Shown piece by piece: positions 1 to 15,755 of a stretch of DNA of 20,886 nt. Position numbers and translations under genes: made by a program. This DNA is from a virus. How positions within the stretch are numbered: position 1 is the stretch's first letter; every line of letters begins with the position of its first letter. Where the stretch lies: IMG/VR virus record IMGVR_UViG_3300037628_000234, positions 1 to 20,886 of that record. One strand, given 5' to 3'. The notes below the pieces were generated by a model, which was given only the letters and a program-made list of their open reading frames with translations, was not told where the DNA came from and searched no databases.

Positions 1-30
1 TAGTTTCTAGCGAGGAATTAAGGCGACAGT
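1..30 (+). CDS. Tail tape measure protein, end of exon 1 (partial, 5' part outside window)
   Basis: The frame that opens at base 3 reads V-S-S-E-E-L-R-R-Q and then the first base (T30) of a split codon. Read on without splicing, it stops at 42-44. Joined to base 354, the split codon becomes TTA (Leu) and the protein continues GERLPGAMEVAAQSMG. The pattern EEL-R-x-QL-x-x-x-LPGA followed by A-x-x-MG is typical of lambda/TP901-type tape measure proteins, which set tail length and fill the tail tube. The upstream bulk of the gene lies outside the window. The frame and junction are seen directly; the family comes from recognising the motif. Confidence 0.85.
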
Positions 31-353
31 GGAATTTCATCTAGCTGTCTAGTCTTAGTAATAAGACTTAAGTAAAGACATTTAATTGCGGGGAACTCCT
101 GTAAAACTCAACATAGGATACTGGGCAGTGATGCACCAGCGAACCCTAAAAACTGTTGAGGTAGGGACAATCCGCAGCCAAGCCAAAGGTTTCCTTTGGA
201 AGGTTCAACGACCAGTGCTTTGCACGTACACCCAAGTGGGTGGAAATGGTGTCCTCCCCTTACGGGGATGAAGATATGGTCTAATCTTGTACGAGAGTAT
301 AAGCTGCACATAGTGGTGCGGGGATAGCCTAACGAACTATCTTGAATATTGAG
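31..353 (+). ncRNA. Group I self-splicing intron (IA2-like, no ORF) in the tape measure gene
   Basis: A 323-base ribozyme with all core elements. P1: exon GACAGT 25-30 pairs with GCTGTC 44-49, with the required U30:G44 wobble at the 5' splice site. P10: 39-43 pairs with exon 2 bases 354-358. P2: perfect 7-bp stem 51-57/62-68 with GTAA loop. P3: 77-81/249-253. P4: 87-92/171-176. P6: 183-189/193-199. P7: 210-214/277-281, preceded by a typical R element (GTTCAACGACCA). P7.1: 215-218/222-225. P7.2: 230-233/238-241. P8: 255-259/264-268 with TTAC loop. P9-region hairpins: 304-309/316-321 and 323-327/337-341. The last intron base is G353 (omega G). P7.1 and P7.2 place it in subgroup IA. A P5 extension is paired by 107-112/155-160. 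No homing endonuclease is encoded: the open frame at 86-271 lacks homology and only overlaps the core. Confidence 0.94.
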
Positions 354-1225
354 TAGGTGAAAGATTGCCAGGCGCAATGGAAGTTGCCGCCCAATCAATG
401 GGCCTCAACACCCTAGAGTTATCCAACATGCTTCGCAAAGGAGAAGTAGTAACTAAAGATTTTCTTCCCAAGTTTTTAGACCTCTATGAGAAGAACGTAG
501 TCAAGGCTGGTGCATTTGCCAAGTCATTAAAAACAATCACTGTTGCACAACAGAACATGGTTAGCCAATGGCAGCTAATGATCAAGAGTGTTAGTGAGAA
601 AGGTGGTAAGAATGTCCTTATAAGAGTGTTTGAAAGTCTCAGGGATATAATAACAAACATCACCCCAGGCCTCCAACTAATAACAAGTGCCGTTGGAGGC
701 ATAGCACTTGCCTTGGCAGGGCTAGTCACAGGCTTTACAGCTGTTACAGCACCAATTGTCAAAGCTATAAATTTCATCATGGGAACTCTGATTAGCCTCA
801 CTGGGGTTATCCTAGACCCAAATGATGGCCTAGTCACAGCATTTGAACTCCTTGGATTTACAATGGCTACAGTGTTTATAGCCACAGGGGGATCTGCTAT
901 TGCAGGCATGGTGGCTGGGCTAGTCGCCATGATTAAAAACTCCAAGATCTTGGTTAACATCCTCAAGGTGATAAGGCAAGAGATGCAACTAACAGCATTC
1001 TTTGCCAGCTTATCCACTGGAGGTGTTAGCGCCTTAGCTGGGGCTGCTGCATTTACAGCTGCAACACTGGGTGCACATGCACTATTAACCAGAGGTTCTG
1101 GAGAGACTAACACCACTAATACCACCACCACTAGTATTAATATTGAGAAAGCAGAAGCCAGTGTGGATGACATTAGAAGGATGGTTGAAGAGCAGAATGC
1201 TAATAACATAAGGCAAGGCAGATAA
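354..1225 (+). CDS. Tail tape measure protein, exon 2 (C-terminal part)
   Basis: Exon 2 supplies the last two bases of the split Leu codon and then 289 residues to TAA at 1223-1225. It begins GERLPGAMEVAAQSMG and continues with a DFLPKF motif, both characteristic of phage tape measure proteins near the middle or C-terminal third. The rest has several long hydrophobic stretches rich in Gly, Ala and Val (roughly residues 105-165 and 175-260 from exon 2 start), as in tape measure segments thought to interact with the host membrane. A Thr/Asn-rich linker and a charged C-terminal helix follow. An ATG could open the frame at 377, but that would start inside the conserved motif, so translation through the splice junction is far more likely. 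The next gene follows after 12 bases with its own AGGAGG. CpG is commoner in the first 150 bases than later. Confidence 0.88.
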
Positions 1226-1237
1226 ACAGGAGGCTGT

Positions 1238-1816
1238 GTGAGCCAGTACTATTTACAGTTCAATGAAATAACTATATTTACGCTGGATGCCACTACACAG
1301 ATGAGCTACACAATGTCTGGGAAAACAACAGACTCCCCAATAGAATCTGGAGAGTCTGTCTCTGACCATTATGTAAACCTCCCAGAGGTGATCACCCTCT
1401 CAGGTGTAATAACAGATATGGTGAGCCTGGGGCAATCCCCTGAGCACAGAACTCCAGCAGACTTTATCAAAGAGCTGAGGTTTTTAAAGACAACAGGCAC
1501 ACCCTTCTCTGTTTGGATAGGCACAAAGTTGGAGAATATTCCAAACTGTGTCTTCACCTCACTCAGGGTTTCCCAATCAGACCAGCAAGGTAGCAGAGTG
1601 TTTGGTGAGGAAGAAGTTCTTAGTGCCTATAAGGTGGATATGTCCTTCAAGCAGATCAGGTTTGGTGGAGCTGCCACACTGGAGAAGATTCCAAAGCAGT
1701 CTATAAAGGATGACGCCAGTGGAAAGATAAGTAGCCCAGAGACCACAAAGAAGGTGGAGCCTCTTGAGCAGATAACAATACGGGAGAGGATTGGTCTCTT
1801 CGAGGGAGACCTGTAA
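1238..1816 (+). CDS. Dit-like baseplate/tail tube initiator protein
   Basis: A GTG start is preceded by AGGAGG at a good distance, giving 192 residues. The N-terminal two thirds (residues about 5-150) contain SPIESGESVSDHYV, LPEVITLSGVI and later PFSVWIG and a CVFTSLRVSQS segment. This layout matches the N-terminal domain of Dit-like phage tail proteins: a beta-rich fold, self-association and a loop with a Ser/Asp/His run. In myoviruses of this type it sits directly after the tape measure gene and joins tube to baseplate. The C-terminal 40 residues are charged and probably flexible. The stop overlaps the next start (TAATG), implying coupled translation. Family assignment is by eye and moderately firm. 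Confidence 0.7.
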   Translation: MSQYYLQFNEITIFTLDATTQMSYTMSGKTTDSPIESGESVSDHYVNLPEVITLSGVITDMVSLGQSPEHRTPADFIKELRFLKTTGTPFSVWIGTKLENIPNCVFTSLRVSQSDQQGSRVFGEEEVLSAYKVDMSFKQIRFGGAATLEKIPKQSIKDDASGKISSPETTKKVEPLEQITIRERIGLFEGDL

Positions 1817-2142
1817 TGCCTTTTAAAATCCCTGTACCTGAGTCACCTTGGGTGGATGAATTTCTAACCCTAGGTGGACAAGAATATAAATTTACATTTA
1901 GGTTTAACACTGAAGATGAAAGATGGAGGTTTGATCTCTTCCTCAATGAAGAGCCAGTGATACTTGGTGTAAAGGTAATGGAGAATCAATCCCTCTTATC
2001 CCAGTATGCCCTCCCAGATTTTTCTCATGGTGACATCTTCTGTGTAGAAACACAAAATACAGATGCAGAAGCTGGGAGGAGTAATGTAGGCATAGGCCTT
2101 CCCTATGAACTGGTGTACTTCAGTAACCAAGAGTTGGCTTAA
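1816..2142 (+). CDS. Small baseplate protein, Pam3 gp18 plug-like
   Basis: A 108-residue protein whose ATG overlaps the TAA of the upstream gene by one base. It shows alternating beta-strand patterns (WVDEFLTLGGQEYKFTFRFN, then RWRFDLFLNEEPVILGVKV) and ends with an aromatic strand, LPYELVYF. This resembles the small beta-barrel plug protein described for the cyanophage Pam3 baseplate (gp18-like) and its relatives. These lie between the Dit-like protein and the hub and are thought to close the central channel. The order here fits. The similarity is recalled, not computed, so the plug role is an inference from family and position. Confidence 0.55.
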   Translation: MPFKIPVPESPWVDEFLTLGGQEYKFTFRFNTEDERWRFDLFLNEEPVILGVKVMENQSLLSQYALPDFSHGDIFCVETQNTDAEAGRSNVGIGLPYELVYFSNQELA

Positions 2143-2144
2143 TC

Positions 2145-3257
2145 ATGGCAGTGACATCATATGGGAGAGTTTACAGCCTAGCCATAGCTAGGTATCAAGA
2201 CTATGGACCTACACTGGTTGACAACCTAACCCCAAGTACAGTGTCCCCCACTCCAGGGGTGACAACCACTGCCACAGGTGGCAGCTTCTTCCCTGACCCA
2301 GCAAGGCTTGATCTCCCTGCCTTGGAAGAACCACCAATAGACCTCACCTCCATCCCTGCTGTGGCATTGACTATCACTGATCTAAGGATTACAGCTGATA
2401 TCAAATGGGGGAAAGAAGGCTCTGCTGGCTCCAACAGCCAAGAAGCTGTTATAGAAATATATAATCTAGACAAGAGAGATAGGGTGTTGGGCACCTCTGG
2501 TATCTCCTTCTCCATCGATGAGCTCTTACGCTCTGATAATACAGTTGTGTTGAAAGCAGGGTATGAACAAACTCAAGGGGAGCTTCCAACCATAGTCACT
2601 GGCCAGATACGCTGGGTGGAGACAATCAAACGTGGTGTTGACACAATAATAAAGATCCTGATAAAGGATGCTTCCCTCATTACAGATAACTTGAGGGTGT
2701 CAAGGTTTTACAACCCCACAGACACTTACAGGTTTATCATAGAAGACTTGATGAGCTTTGCTGCACAGAATGGTGTACCAAGAGGGACCTTACTTACTTC
2801 AATATTTAATGACACCCAAGGCCTACACTCAAAGATAACAGATATAGACTCCCAAGTTGGTGAACAAGGCTATTATGTCATAGGATATGTTATTAAGCAT
2901 CTTCAAACCCTGTGTGAAGACTTGGGGTACAGGGCATACACCTCCCTTGGTAAACTCTATGTTGAGCCCATCTACTCTGTTGAATACCTAGAGCAAGTGG
3001 TTATCACTAAGGACAATCTCAAGGAAACAATAAGACCTATTGATCCCTCTGGAAATAAAAATCTCCAGCAGACAGACTCTAAGGATGGATTAAAGATATC
3101 CATGTTCCTCAATGGGGACATAACCTTGGACAAAAGACTGAAGGTTGACATAGAAGGGTTTCAGGGTACATACAAGATAACTTCCATAAATCACAAGATG
3201 GATTTGGAAGACACCAACTGGAATACCATCATTGAGTGCATAAAGGAAGTGGTGTAG
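2145..3257 (+). CDS. Baseplate hub protein (gp27/gpD-like)
   Basis: 370 residues. The N-terminal 75 residues are Pro/Thr-rich and low in complexity. From about residue 75 the chain reads ITDLRITADIKW, then VIEIYNLDK, LKAGYE and a VTGQI-RWVET segment. This is the first barrel of hub proteins of the T4 gp27/P2 gpD fold, where a tail-tube-like domain carries 'I.NL' and 'AGY' strands. The middle (about 180-280) is helical with YRFIIEDLMSFAA and VIKHLQTLCEDLGYRAY. The C-terminus returns to beta strands ending in YKITSINHKMDLEDTNWNT, typical of hubs. It precedes the spike gene, as expected. The amber stop at 3255-3257 is followed at once by ATG (see the short reading frame at 3258). Fold assignment is by pattern. 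Confidence 0.72.
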   Translation: MAVTSYGRVYSLAIARYQDYGPTLVDNLTPSTVSPTPGVTTTATGGSFFPDPARLDLPALEEPPIDLTSIPAVALTITDLRITADIKWGKEGSAGSNSQEAVIEIYNLDKRDRVLGTSGISFSIDELLRSDNTVVLKAGYEQTQGELPTIVTGQIRWVETIKRGVDTIIKILIKDASLITDNLRVSRFYNPTDTYRFIIEDLMSFAAQNGVPRGTLLTSIFNDTQGLHSKITDIDSQVGEQGYYVIGYVIKHLQTLCEDLGYRAYTSLGKLYVEPIYSVEYLEQVVITKDNLKETIRPIDPSGNKNLQQTDSKDGLKISMFLNGDITLDKRLKVDIEGFQGTYKITSINHKMDLEDTNWNTIIECIKEVV

Positions 3258-3284
3258 ATGCGTGGCATAAACGGAGTGGCATAA
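3258..3284 (+). other. 8-codon mini reading frame and 9-bp direct repeat between hub and spike genes
   Basis: Directly after the amber stop of the hub gene comes ATG-CGT-GGC-ATA-AAC-GGA-GTG-GCA-TAA (MRGINGVA). It contains GTGGCATAA twice (3262-3270 and 3276-3284). The second copy ends three bases before the ATG of the spike gene. It could be a coupling mini-cistron, an in-frame readthrough tail of the hub, or a duplication by slippage. There is no evidence that a peptide is made. Confidence 0.3.
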
Positions 3285-3287
3285 GGC

Positions 3288-3983
3288 ATGACCCTACAGA
3301 GTGTCATCATAGGCAATATCCAAGACTGGGTGATAGAGAATGTAAAAACCTCCCTCCCAGCAAAAGTCTTGAAGGTATCAGACTTTGAAGATCATCAAAG
3401 AGTAACTGTGCAGCCCACCCTAGATTACACATACAAGGATGGGGTGGTGTTGGAGTTTCCAGCTATCTCAGGTGTACCTGTTCAATACCCCAGTGGTGGT
3501 GGTGGTGTAATGACCTTCCCCATTGCTGTAGGTGACTTTGTTACACTACAGTTTTCTATGCTCTCTATGAAAGAGTGGTTAGCTGGGGTGGGTGATAACG
3601 TCACCCCTGAAGATTCAAGATCCTATAACTATGCTGATGCTGTGGCAATCCCAGGCCTCACCACCTACCAGACCAACTTCTCCCCTAATCCTCTGGATGT
3701 TGAGATAAAGTTCAATGGCAGTAGCTTCAAGCTAAACTCAGATGGTAGCGGGAAGGGTGTAACCCTGACCACTGATGCTAACGTAGAGGTGAATTGTGTA
3801 CAGGCTAATGTGAATGCCTCTGAGAGTGTCAATGTAGACTCACCGGCTATAAACTTGGGTGTTGGTGGACCAGAGATTGCTCGTAAGGGTGATGCTGTGG
3901 AAGTTACTGTAGTTGGTGGAAGTAGTTCTGGAACACACTCAGGGACTATAACTGGGGGTTCTTCCCAAAACACTTCAGCATAA
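3288..3983 (+). CDS. Baseplate central spike protein, Gp138 N-terminal OB-fold type (gpV-like)
   Basis: 231 residues. The first 120 contain VKTSLPAKVLKV, HQRVTVQPTLDYTYKDG, PAISGVPVQYPSGGGGVMTFPIAVGDFVTLQFS and the segment MKEWLAGVG. This is the clear signature of the Gp138 N-terminal OB-fold domain of short myoviral membrane-piercing spikes: a P-x-I-x-x-VP strand, a GGG turn and 'P...GD.V.L.FS'. Residues about 140-195 form a repeated short-strand pattern (FKLNSDGSGKGVTLTTDANV, INLGVGG), the expected triple-stranded beta-helix needle. The C-terminus (IARKGDAVEV, then Ser/Gly/Thr-rich) resembles a spike tip. Such trimers pierce the outer membrane. GGAG at 3273-3276 could act as ribosome binding site, 11 bases before ATG. 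Confidence 0.82.
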   Translation: MTLQSVIIGNIQDWVIENVKTSLPAKVLKVSDFEDHQRVTVQPTLDYTYKDGVVLEFPAISGVPVQYPSGGGGVMTFPIAVGDFVTLQFSMLSMKEWLAGVGDNVTPEDSRSYNYADAVAIPGLTTYQTNFSPNPLDVEIKFNGSSFKLNSDGSGKGVTLTTDANVEVNCVQANVNASESVNVDSPAINLGVGGPEIARKGDAVEVTVVGGSSSGTHSGTITGGSSQNTSA

Positions 3984-7938: not shown

Positions 7939-8402
7939 GTGTATTAGTTAGCTGGACAGCCCAAACAGCTGGGCCGCTAGTAAGAGGCCTCTACCCTGCT
8001 GGACTTAGCCACTTAGACTTTGACAGCTCCCCAGATAATGAGGCTGTAGGTGGCCTACTAGTAGCCTTGTATAATGGAGATCCTTCCCCAGCAGCTATGG
8101 CTGTCTTTGGTATGACTGAGTACACTGACCCATATCCCCCAATACCAGTTATTGTACACAGAACCAGAGTAACTGGTAGAGAGCTGATTGCCCTATTTGA
8201 TTCTAGGGATGAAGAGATTTGGGACAGGGTTGAAGAGTCTGGAGCTCAAGCGGCTAAAGATTTTAGAGAAGCTGTAGCTAGAAACTTAGATAGACGAGTA
8301 AGCTTGACAGCTTCATTTATTACTGATGCCTTTGCTTTAATGGTTCCTAATATATGCAGCCAGGATGACCTTGACTTTGTTTCCTTGGGGGTTGAGGTAT
8401 GA
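7935..8402 (+). CDS. Unknown protein downstream of adhesin (possible fiber partner)
   Basis: 155 residues; ATG overlaps the adhesin stop (ATGA). It has a Trp/Gly/Pro-rich N-terminal half (VSWTAQTAGPLVRGLYPAGL; GDPSPAAMAVFG; EYTDPYPPIPVIVHRTRVTG) and a helical C-terminal half (ELIALFDSRDEEIWDRVEESGAQAAKDFREAV). I do not recognise the family. The overlap with the adhesin gene suggests a linked job such as chaperone or adaptor, which is inference only. Its composition returns to the CpG-poor background, so it was probably not brought in together with the adhesin segment. Confidence 0.65.
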   Translation: MSVLVSWTAQTAGPLVRGLYPAGLSHLDFDSSPDNEAVGGLLVALYNGDPSPAAMAVFGMTEYTDPYPPIPVIVHRTRVTGRELIALFDSRDEEIWDRVEESGAQAAKDFREAVARNLDRRVSLTASFITDAFALMVPNICSQDDLDFVSLGVEV

Positions 8403-8641
8403 GATATTTAATACTCTTATCAATCTTATTGTTAGCTTCCTGTGGAGCCACTCCACTATCAAAGGATAGTGGTACACAATATATGATGGTCTCACAAGCT
8501 TGTGCCAGCTTTGTTCAAGCTTTAATAACTGGTGATGCCTGTATTTGGAAAATGACTAACACAGATTCTAAAGTAAAATGGGATTTTACAGCAACAGGTA
8601 AGGATGAGTGGACAGTAATAAGTACACCTAGTGAGGAATAG
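8399..8641 (+). CDS. Small lipoprotein (o-spanin-like candidate)
   Basis: 80 residues; ATG overlaps the previous stop (ATGA). The N-terminus MRYLILLSILLLASCGA is a lipoprotein signal: one Arg, a hydrophobic core, and lipobox L-A-S-C with Cys15 as the lipidated residue. The +2 residue is Gly, so the mature protein should go to the outer membrane of a Gram-negative host. The mature part of about 66 residues is short, with one further Cys pair (SQACAS...GDACIW) and no Pro-rich stretch. It could be an outer-membrane spanin subunit (Rz1-like), a superinfection-exclusion lipoprotein, or a host-surface modifier. Position next to lipase and a membrane coiled-coil protein favours a lysis or envelope role. 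Confidence 0.75.
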   Translation: MRYLILLSILLLASCGATPLSKDSGTQYMMVSQACASFVQALITGDACIWKMTNTDSKVKWDFTATGKDEWTVISTPSEE

Positions 8642-8643
8642 CA

Positions 8644-9309
8644 ATGCATGGGGCCTACTTAGATTCTCTAAGGCTAGATGAACTGCCCATCCCTATCTCA
8701 GATGCTTTACATTTTGCAGATGACAGCTACACAGAAGTAACCTATTGTGAGAAAGAAGTAGAGTGTTGGGTTGAGGAATTTGATAGTCACACTATTGTAG
8801 CTTATAGGGGTACAGAAGGAAGTGGTATCTTCAGCAAAGGGGGATGGAGAGACTTAACCAGAGATATTAGGGCTTTCCCTTGGAAGGATAAAAGAATTGG
8901 CTGGTGCCATGCGGGATTCCTCAAAGGAGCCCGTAGAGTTGTAGACAAACATCTGATGACTATGGTGAGTAGAGCCAAGCCTGTTATCTTTATAGGCCAT
9001 AGCTTAGGGGGTGCCCTCTCTGTCATCTCTGCAATACTAATGAAGCTGGCAGGGTTTAATGTCACAGGCCTCATTACATTCGGCGCTCCCAGAGCACTCT
9101 ACAAGAGTGCCTATAGAGTGGCCAAGTCCCTGAAAATCCCCACTTGGCAATTCTCTAACCCTGGAGATCCAGTGGCAGATATGCCTGCCAAGTTTCTAGG
9201 GTGTTACCACCTCTTGGAGATTGAAACAGATAGAGAGGCCAGAGGCTACTCCATTGGCAACAATCATATGATGAACAGATACTATGAGGCTTTTGAATGG
9301 GCAATGTAG
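8644..9309 (+). CDS. Class 3 lipase (alpha/beta hydrolase)
   Basis: 221 residues with a full lipase class 3 layout. An oxyanion strand reads IVAYRGTE (51-58), and WRDLTRDI (68-75) and HAGFLKG (89-95) follow. The nucleophile elbow is IGHSLGGA (117-124) with Ser120. ITFGAPR (144-150) comes next, then NPGDPVADMP with Asp175, and His208 in NNHMM. The catalytic triad Ser120-Asp175-His208 is thus intact. No signal peptide or membrane segment is visible, so it acts in the cytoplasm, is released with the help of a holin-like pore, or is a virion part. Substrate cannot be told; phospholipid or other acyl esters are typical. It lies between the lipoprotein and a gene overlapping its end by 13 bases, so all are probably co-expressed late. 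Confidence 0.9.
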   Translation: MHGAYLDSLRLDELPIPISDALHFADDSYTEVTYCEKEVECWVEEFDSHTIVAYRGTEGSGIFSKGGWRDLTRDIRAFPWKDKRIGWCHAGFLKGARRVVDKHLMTMVSRAKPVIFIGHSLGGALSVISAILMKLAGFNVTGLITFGAPRALYKSAYRVAKSLKIPTWQFSNPGDPVADMPAKFLGCYHLLEIETDREARGYSIGNNHMMNRYYEAFEWAM

Positions 9310-14209: not shown

Positions 14210-14649
14210 TTAAACTCCTTAACGAAAGCTGCTTGGGCAGGATTCAACCAAGCTGTTTTAACTTTGGGGTATACCAATCCTCCCAACCCTTCAGGTAGCC
14301 TTCCCTCTACTACAGAGTAGTCACCAAGGAACTCGTATACATAGAAACACTTAAGGTACGGAGGGAGTGAACCACCTCCCTCTAACCTAATTCTTAGTGC
14401 CACCTCTATCTTGTTGGAATTGTCAGGAGGGTAAGGGACAGTATACCTACTACAGAAAGTTTCCTCCCTATCCACGTAATGTGTTGTGAACCACCCTACT
14501 TTTTCACCCCTAGGTTCATAGCCCAGGTGTTCATAATAAATATCTAGGAGTTGCTTAACTTCAGATTCACGTACAGCCTTGAAACCTTCAATAGACTTCT
14601 CTATGTCCACTATGGGGACTTCCACAGCCCCACTAAAAGATTCACTCAC
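14206..14649 (-). CDS. Unknown protein
   Basis: 147 residues from a GTG preceded by GGAG. The N-terminal part is helical (IEKSIEGFKAVRESEVKQLLDIYYEHLGYEPRG). The middle has strands (KVGWFTTHYVDREETFCSRYTV; KIEVALRIRLEGGGSLPPYLKCFYVYEFLG). The C-terminus reads AWLNPAQAAFVKEFK. No family is recognised. It overlaps the HNH gene upstream and the phosphoesterase gene downstream by four bases each, so it belongs firmly to the operon. Confidence 0.65.
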   Translation of the reverse strand: MSESFSGAVEVPIVDIEKSIEGFKAVRESEVKQLLDIYYEHLGYEPRGEKVGWFTTHYVDREETFCSRYTVPYPPDNSNKIEVALRIRLEGGGSLPPYLKCFYVYEFLGDYSVVEGRLPEGLGGLVYPKVKTAWLNPAQAAFVKEFK

Positions 14650-15212
14650 TTAATCACTCCCAACTTGACAAGCTCCCGAACAGCCCCCTTCCTCTTCTCC
14701 TCATTTGACACTTGCTTCTCTGTGTAGTCAAAGTCAGTCATGAGGATATGCTTGATTTGTTTATCTTTCATAATGGCTATCACCAGTTTCTCCCTCTCAG
14801 CCTCCTCAAAGCTTAAATTGTGACGTTCCGAGTAGGTTTTTACAGCATGACACTCTTTGCATAGTAGTGCCAAATCCTCAAAAGAAATAAACACTAAATC
14901 TAATACAAACCTCTGTATATCCTCTACACAGTTTAGTTTCATTTCACCTTGTCTGTGGTCCACTTGGCAGTCTGATTGCTTTTTCTCCTCCCCACACTGC
15001 TCGCACTTACACCCCCACACTACAGCCCTGATACCCTCTTTATTTCTCTTGCCTAGAGGGACCCTAACCCTCTTAGACTTAATGAACTCTGTTTTTGTGG
15101 GGTTATGTGACCACAGAGATTTTCTTAAGCCTCCTCTTAGGTAAGTGTAGAACTTCGCCCTTGTGTTCCAAGGTGTGTAAGGGAGTTCCCATGGGTCCCT
15201 AAGTTCCCTCAT
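14646..15212 (-). CDS. HNH-type endonuclease, freestanding
   Basis: 188 residues with AGGAG before ATG. The zinc/HNH core runs from about 66 to 122. It has WGCKCEQCGEEKKQSDCQVDHRQG with Cys70-x2-Cys73 and the catalytic-type DH at 85-86, and later LALLCKECHAVKTYSERH with Cys118-x2-Cys121-His122. A basic N-terminal region (KSLWSHNPTKTEFIKSKRVRVPLGKRNKEG) probably contacts DNA. It may be a homing-type nuclease or a replication/recombination HNH nuclease fixed in the phage. It directly follows the broken HNH-AP2 gene. CpG is a little commoner here than in the neighbours, consistent with more recent arrival. Confidence 0.82.
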   Translation of the reverse strand: MRELRDPWELPYTPWNTRAKFYTYLRGGLRKSLWSHNPTKTEFIKSKRVRVPLGKRNKEGIRAVVWGCKCEQCGEEKKQSDCQVDHRQGEMKLNCVEDIQRFVLDLVFISFEDLALLCKECHAVKTYSERHNLSFEEAEREKLVIAIMKDKQIKHILMTDFDYTEKQVSNEEKRKGAVRELVKLGVIK

Positions 15213-15394
15213 TTATTTATCTCCTCATTAGTTTTAGCATACTCACCGTGTAGGCTAACAATGTACTTGTCGTAAGAGCGACTAGCCTCCAAGGGACATT
15301 TAAATGACCCTAAGTGTACTTTATTGAACTGAGCTTGCCACCTGACAACTTTCCCCTTCTTATTCCTCCTTGGATAGACCCCCCTTAAAGCCAC
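15209..15394 (-). pseudogene. AP2 DNA-binding domain, detached 3' part of an HNH-AP2 endonuclease
   Basis: The frame reads RGVYPRRNKKG, WQAQF, LGSFKCPLEASRSYDKYIV and HGEYAKTN, an AP2/ERF-type DNA-binding domain. In phages it usually forms the C-terminus of HNH_3 homing endonucleases. The HNH frame upstream ends in SGFKG, the standard lead into RGVY. The two overlap at a run of six G (- strand; 15379-15384 on the + strand), and one G fewer would fuse them. The only start in this frame before the domain is GTG at 15394, inside the HNH end and without its own Shine-Dalgarno. Thus it is most likely a frameshift, a sequencing slip in the homopolymer, or a rare +1 slippage site. Confidence 0.8.
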
Positions 15395-15755
15395 TCAAGC
15401 TGTTAATTTTCCATATATTCGCTTGGTTTTGGGAGCTGGTTGCTTCTCTGAGATTATTTATCCTATTATTCTTACTATCCCCATCAATATGGTCTAACAT
15501 ACCTTCTGGGAGTACTCCATAGGTATACAACCAAGCCATTCTGTGGGCTTTATATTTTCTTCCTAAAAGGGAGAAGTGGATATACCCTCTGCCATCAGTG
15601 TAGCCTAGCTCCTCCCCTAATTTTCTCGTGTTATCTCTTGTGTGTGTCTTCTTAATAAATATGAAAACACCTGTCTCTGGGTTGTACTCCACGTACTCCT
15701 TAAGTAACTCTTGAGTAAGTGTTAGAGGACCCTCACCCCATATGCTACTCCTCAC
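15360..15755 (-). CDS. HNH_3 homing endonuclease, 5' part, truncated by frameshift
   Basis: 131 residues from GTG. The pattern is EYNPETGVFIFIKK, GYIHFSLLGRKYKAHRMAWLYTYG and LDHIDGDSKNNRINNLREATSSQNQAN. This is the standard HNH_3 homing endonuclease domain, with His71, Asp88-His89 and the N-x-x-x-NLR block (96-103). After NSLSGFKG the frame runs into GLSKEE and stops, where intact relatives go on into an AP2 domain. The G6 run on the - strand explains the shift. The start overlaps the 54-residue gene upstream by 11 bases and has only a weak ribosome binding site, so this is probably an insertion into the operon. The HNH part could still cut DNA but without its AP2 targeting domain. Confidence 0.85.
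   Translation of the reverse strand: MRSSIWGEGPLTLTQELLKEYVEYNPETGVFIFIKKTHTRDNTRKLGEELGYTDGRGYIHFSLLGRKYKAHRMAWLYTYGVLPEGMLDHIDGDSKNNRINNLREATSSQNQANIWKINSLSGFKGGLSKEE

Follow-up and report, generated by a model that had tools for sequence, protein, structure and literature searches.

Positions 31-353 of the virus DNA analyzed here (the window: 20,886 bases, the record IMGVR_UViG_3300037628_000234 taken whole, probably a fragment) are an ORF-less group I intron of the IA type. Judging from the sequence, we put the probability at about 0.93 that this intron lies in the conserved motif EELRRQ^LGERLPGA of a tape measure gene and is spliced out to give the full tape measure protein; the 323-base RNA would very probably excise itself. 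At the level of sequence, the anatomy, the borders, the reading frame, an empty site in a relative and the likeness to a phage with proven splicing are all established. Group I introns in tape measure genes, which determine tail length, are already known, and what is added here is the clustering of six insertion sites in one short motif.

The record opens inside exon 1 of the tape measure gene, the upstream part of which lies outside the record. The 3' end of this exon (1-30, plus strand), recognized by translation and by PHROG and Pfam matches that run over the junction, is read from base 3 as VSSEELRRQ plus the first base of a Leu codon. Exon 2 (354-1225, plus strand; translation and PHROG match) continues with L-GERLPGAM to the stop codon at 1223-1225 and is an open frame of 286 codons. 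Downstream of the tape measure gene are genes for a baseplate hub, a spike-like protein, a wedge protein and Baseplate_J, and these tail genes are open as well. Both parts of the original description, a tape measure host gene and a myovirus, agree with this arrangement: tape measure families match over the junction within a tail gene cluster, and the baseplate hub, Baseplate_J and wedge genes fit the myoviral label. The spliced protein matches phrog_18891 (1.7e-22) and eight further PHROGs; its match to Pfam TMP_3 (2.9e-8, 34.1 bits) is below the cut-off of 41. Further along the window, a small protein (8399-8641, plus strand) weakly resembles T4 Spackle (21.9 bits, less than the Pfam cut-off) and adjoins an esterase/lipase-like gene (8644-9309).

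The intron has the complete architecture of its class. A search with the group I Rfam models over the intron region, proposed with the original prediction, gives a match to RF00028 over 27-303 on the plus strand (cmscan: 69.3 bits; gathering score 50) that covers the whole model, positions 1-253. The core helices, P1 and the terminal G can be followed base by base, as had been claimed; all lie on the plus strand. P1 (25-30/44-49) joins the exon bases GACAGU to the internal guide GCUGUC with 6 of 6 pairs, including a U30.G44 wobble at the 5' splice site. P2 (51-57/62-68) has 7 of 7 pairs. The catalytic core (77-253) is bounded by P3 (77-82/248-253, 6 of 6 pairs) and contains P4 (87-91/172-176, 5 of 5 pairs in the cmscan alignment and the helix check) and P6 with its P6a hairpin (183-189/193-199, coordinates read by eye from the sequence). 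P7, the guanosine-binding helix (210-214/277-281, 5 of 5 pairs), encloses P7.1 (215-218/222-225, 4 of 4 pairs), P7.2 (229-233/238-242, 5 of 5 pairs), the 3' strand of P3 and P8 (255-259/264-268, 5 of 5 pairs). It is followed by P9 (286-292/297-303, 7 of 7 pairs, with a GAGA loop) and, by the helix check, P9.1 (306-309/316-319) and P9.2 (323-327/337-341). The final base of the intron is the omega-G at 353. P10, between intron bases 35-43 and bases 354-362 of the 3' exon, is present as predicted, but with nine pairs instead of five. The RF00028 core, the U.G pair of P1 together with P10, the omega-G and the P7 helix place the element among the group I introns. P7.1 and P7.2 hairpins are a mark of subgroup IA; here the extra hairpins at 215-225 and 229-242, between P7 and P3', support IA as a whole and do not tell IA1, IA2 and IA3 apart. 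Two ORFs overlap the intron (86-271 on the plus strand, 108-398 on the minus strand), and neither has a Pfam match, so the description as ORF-less holds. For want of a family match, the frame from TTG 86 and the one on the minus strand were dropped as genes; matches to CRISPR repeat models inside the intron were likewise dropped, being far below cut-off.

For the borders, we joined every 5' site from 10 to 80 with every 3' site from 305 to 371; 215 joins keep the frame open. Only two of these, 30/354 and 30/357, have an exon 1 that ends in U, an intron that ends in G and a P1 of at least 4 bp, and of the two only 30/354 forms P10. The borders 31-353 are thus the sole frame-open solution with all four features. 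Translation confirms that the unspliced frame ends at the TAG at 42-44. Excising 31-353 restores both the frame and the conserved motif VSSEELRRQ-L-GERLPGAM, as the original prediction had it, and the tape measure match improves: the phrog_18891 score rises from 50.4 to 80.2 bits and that of Pfam TMP_3 from 27.9 to 34.1 bits, and nine PHROG families are matched instead of five. Six residues of the motif (E4, E5, L6, Q9, L10 and E12) are invariant in eight diverse tape measure proteins. The insertion point splits the Leu codon of L10 behind its first base, with Q9 encoded in exon 1 and the remainder of the L10 codon in exon 2. If the RNA behaves like established group I introns, its guide would pair with exon 1 in P1 and with exon 2 in P10, an exogenous guanosine bound in P7 would attack after U30, and the freed U30 would attack after omega-G353. 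The exons would then be joined as GACAGU|UAGGUGAA, from which the full tape measure protein could be made.

Relatives of the phage carry the same site empty. With the spliced protein as query, tblastn matches 613 phage records; each of the 60 matches listed starts at residue 1 and continues without a break across the junction, and therefore none of those 60 is interrupted here. The comparison with intron-less relatives proposed with the original prediction thus gives a continuous alignment, among the 60 listed of 613. A pattern search of IMG/VR for EEL[RK]xQL[GA]E yields at least 600 stretches, of which at least 525 are confirmed relatives with an uninterrupted motif; with exon 2 alone as query, no close relatives were found in IMG/VR. 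The closest tail relative among the matches listed is on a 93.8 kb contig (L018), where the empty site reads GACAGTTAGGTGAA, 14 nucleotides identical to the joined exons of the window. This contig and the window have six more tail proteins in common, at 28-53% identity. Six of 80 empty sites examined could make all six P1 and five P10 pairs with the guide of the window intron. Elsewhere on the L018 contig, group I matches occur near a ribonucleotide reductase gene that seems to have an intein, and also among LAGLIDADG-like and GIY-YIG-like ORFs beside a terminase-like gene; these gene names come from reading the translations.

The empty sites bear on what the intron is for. A spliced intron might be retained to regulate late gene expression, as a GTP- or translation-coupled switch, and not as a near-neutral parasite, as has been proposed for other phage introns (PMC11878797). 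This reading concerns the role of the intron and is compatible with splicing as we describe it. At least 525 IMG/VR relatives have the motif uninterrupted, including the closest among the matches listed, so the intron is dispensable in the family, and we consider a switch improbable. Slightly less probable still is a decayed group I intron that has lost splicing and left a broken tape measure gene in a defective phage. In favor of this reading, the contig is probably a fragment, in a single record; against it, no core helix is broken, P1, P10 and omega-G are preserved, and exon 2 is open over its 286 codons with open tail genes downstream, which would be unexpected for a dead gene.

A functional intron in the tape measure gene also has precedents. 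The original prediction held such a host gene to be unusual, and this does not stand: the Vibrio phage ICP1 has three introns there, KLEP7, 5P1c, H101 and four IMG/VR contigs have them too, and two of these introns occupy the exact site of the window. Barth et al. (2023, PMC10448857) used RNA-seq, RT-PCR and Sanger sequencing to show that three introns separate the four exons of the ICP1 tape measure gene, and they term the tape measure gene "frequently interrupted"; its interruption had been mentioned before in a 2021 review (PMC9040626). Like the window, ICP1 (HQ641347) has group I introns in this very motif, and its first intron shares 77% identity with the window intron across 102 nucleotides. 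Unlike the window, ICP1 has three introns, none of them at the exact site of the window, and its middle intron carries an HNH endonuclease. Splicing is proven experimentally for ICP1, and we infer it for the window. Cluster J mycobacteriophages offer a more distant parallel: group I introns proven by RT-PCR lie in their capsid and tail genes, the BAKA intron (28,186-28,450) being similar in size to that of the window (PMC3706429). As in the window, virion genes are the hosts, but these are the major capsid gene and a tail gene other than the tape measure gene. A 2025 study of Bastillevirinae (PMC11878797) names genes of nucleotide and DNA metabolism as the usual intron hosts. The window intron is a clear addition to the few self-splicing introns described in virion genes, and runs against the usual view that phage introns favor genes for nucleotide metabolism, DNA polymerase and terminase.

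The further tape measure introns were found in two ways. Four IMG/VR contigs (L002, L008, L009 and L017) were recovered by a pattern that combines the J8/7-P7 signature with GE-x-x-P codons downstream; KLEP7, 5P1c and H101 were recovered by tblastn with an intact relative, which pointed to split tape measure genes. A pattern aimed at introns directly preceding the EEL codons had no matches. Rfam confirms the introns in ICP1, L008, KLEP7, 5P1c and H101, two of the five in H101 being below the gathering score, as is the match in L002. The Rfam matches in L017 and L009 are weak (15.8 and 27.9 bits), and the assignment is therefore based on the exon join in L017 and on exon and HNH likeness to L008 in L009. 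Wherever the junction is resolved, joining the exons as U^...G^ brings back the motif, and each of the 14 tape measure introns examined follows a U, closes P1 with a U.G pair and ends in omega-G. In the contig L008 (IMGVR_UViG_3300025655_001428), four group I matches follow one another (1529-3305), the last with an HNH endonuclease; three of its four introns lie upstream of the EEL motif and are placed approximately.

The two introns at the site of the window are instructive. In the Pseudaeromonas phage KLEP7 (OM654377, L101 1859-2165), an ORF-less intron of 307 nucleotides occupies the same site (CAAT^TAGGTGAA) with the same guide arrangement. Its P1 is GUCAAU/GUUGAC where that of the window is GACAGU/GCUGUC; two P1 pairs have therefore changed on both strands. 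The two introns are not sisters in a rough tree, and that of KLEP7 is not annotated as an intron. In the Pseudoalteromonas phage H101 (NC_029094, L103), intron 4 is at this site; unlike the window, H101 has five introns in one gene, one of them with an HNH endonuclease, and its intron 4 has a P10 of only 2 pairs where the window has 9. The H101 tape measure gene (L103 1466-3955) includes exons of 8, 11 and 20 nucleotides, and that of ICP1 exons of 8 and 16. Among the papers available to the search, none on introns in KLEP7 or H101 was found. As anticipated for annotation without RNA models, several public phage genomes have the tape measure gene annotated as two genes: KLEP7, 5P1c and H101 each list it as two CDS. 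Such annotations, and an ORF call in the window that begins at TTG 365, are what one would see if splicing were dispensable and the two halves were translated separately, with exon 2 initiated at or near TTG 365; yet the best-conserved residues of the motif flank the junction and are joined by splicing only, and ICP1 splices exactly such a gene (PMC10448857), which makes this the least credible of the readings considered.

In the motif MAEELxxQLGExxPGA, six insertion sites fall within about 13 codons, with up to five introns per gene: MA^EE (ICP1 intron 1, H101 intron 2); EEL^, after the second base of the Leu codon (ICP1 intron 2, L008 intron 4, L017, 5P1c, H101 intron 3, and L009, assigned by its 3' side); G^Q (L002); Q-T^TA (window, KLEP7, H101 intron 4); LG^E (ICP1 intron 3); and PG^A (H101 intron 5). 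The pattern searches could see introns just upstream of GE only, so L002, L008 intron 4, L009 and L017 are biased evidence for a hotspot. The introns of the window, ICP1, KLEP7, 5P1c and H101 and the further L008 introns were not selected by position in the gene. With introns placed at random along a gene of about 700 codons, and with rounded values for gene lengths and spans, the clustering has a p-value of about 0.001 for the three ICP1 introns and about 3e-6 for the five of H101. We think it likely that the motif serves group I introns of myophages as a general hotspot, with several intron lineages occupying six or more sites over about 13 codons, the site of the window used in at least three phages, and some genes carrying four or five introns and micro-exons of 8-20 nucleotides that must all be spliced correctly. 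Repeated insertion into one short motif bears on how homing endonucleases choose their targets, and genes with five introns and 8-nucleotide exons would lend themselves well to experiments on the order in which phage introns splice themselves out and on how faithfully they do so. When the core pattern was used without a tape measure reference, the intron matches, read by us, were in ribonucleotide reductase, terminase and psbA genes, which are usual hosts of such introns. One contig (IMGVR_UViG_3300044825_001873, L005 3585-5986) has four group I matches around a psbA-like ORF (photosystem II D1), together with a LAGLIDADG-like ORF, both named from translations.

In a tree of the motif introns (MAFFT/FastTree), those at EEL^ form two tight pairs (ICP1 with 5P1c, L008 with L017), while the three at the site of the window (window, KLEP7 and H101 intron 4) do not group; most deep branches are weakly supported. 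As far as such a tree can indicate, the pattern agrees better with repeated invasion than with simple inheritance. We looked for common ancestry of the three introns that occupy the site of the window and found no sign of it: they are ungrouped in the tree, and by BLAST score the closest relative of the window intron is an nrdA intron (L004). The 323-nucleotide intron has no homing endonuclease gene in its two overlapping ORFs as judged by Pfam. Most probably it arrived by endonuclease-driven homing, or by reverse splicing into a conserved target, and either lost an endonuclease of its own or lacked one from the start. We asked whether two HNH genes elsewhere in the window (14646-15212 and 15209-15755) could provide mobility in trans and found no tie to the intron, since the HNH_3 similarity is short and weak (33.5 and 32.0 bits to the intron endonucleases of L002 and ICP1). 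The gene at 15209-15755 (minus strand) encodes an HNH_3-type homing endonuclease (phrog_99); at a run of six Gs its reading frame breaks into two overlapping ones, owing either to decay of the gene or to a sequencing or assembly error. The other (14646-15212, minus strand; phrog_1985, 6.9e-57) adjoins it within a block of minus-strand genes.
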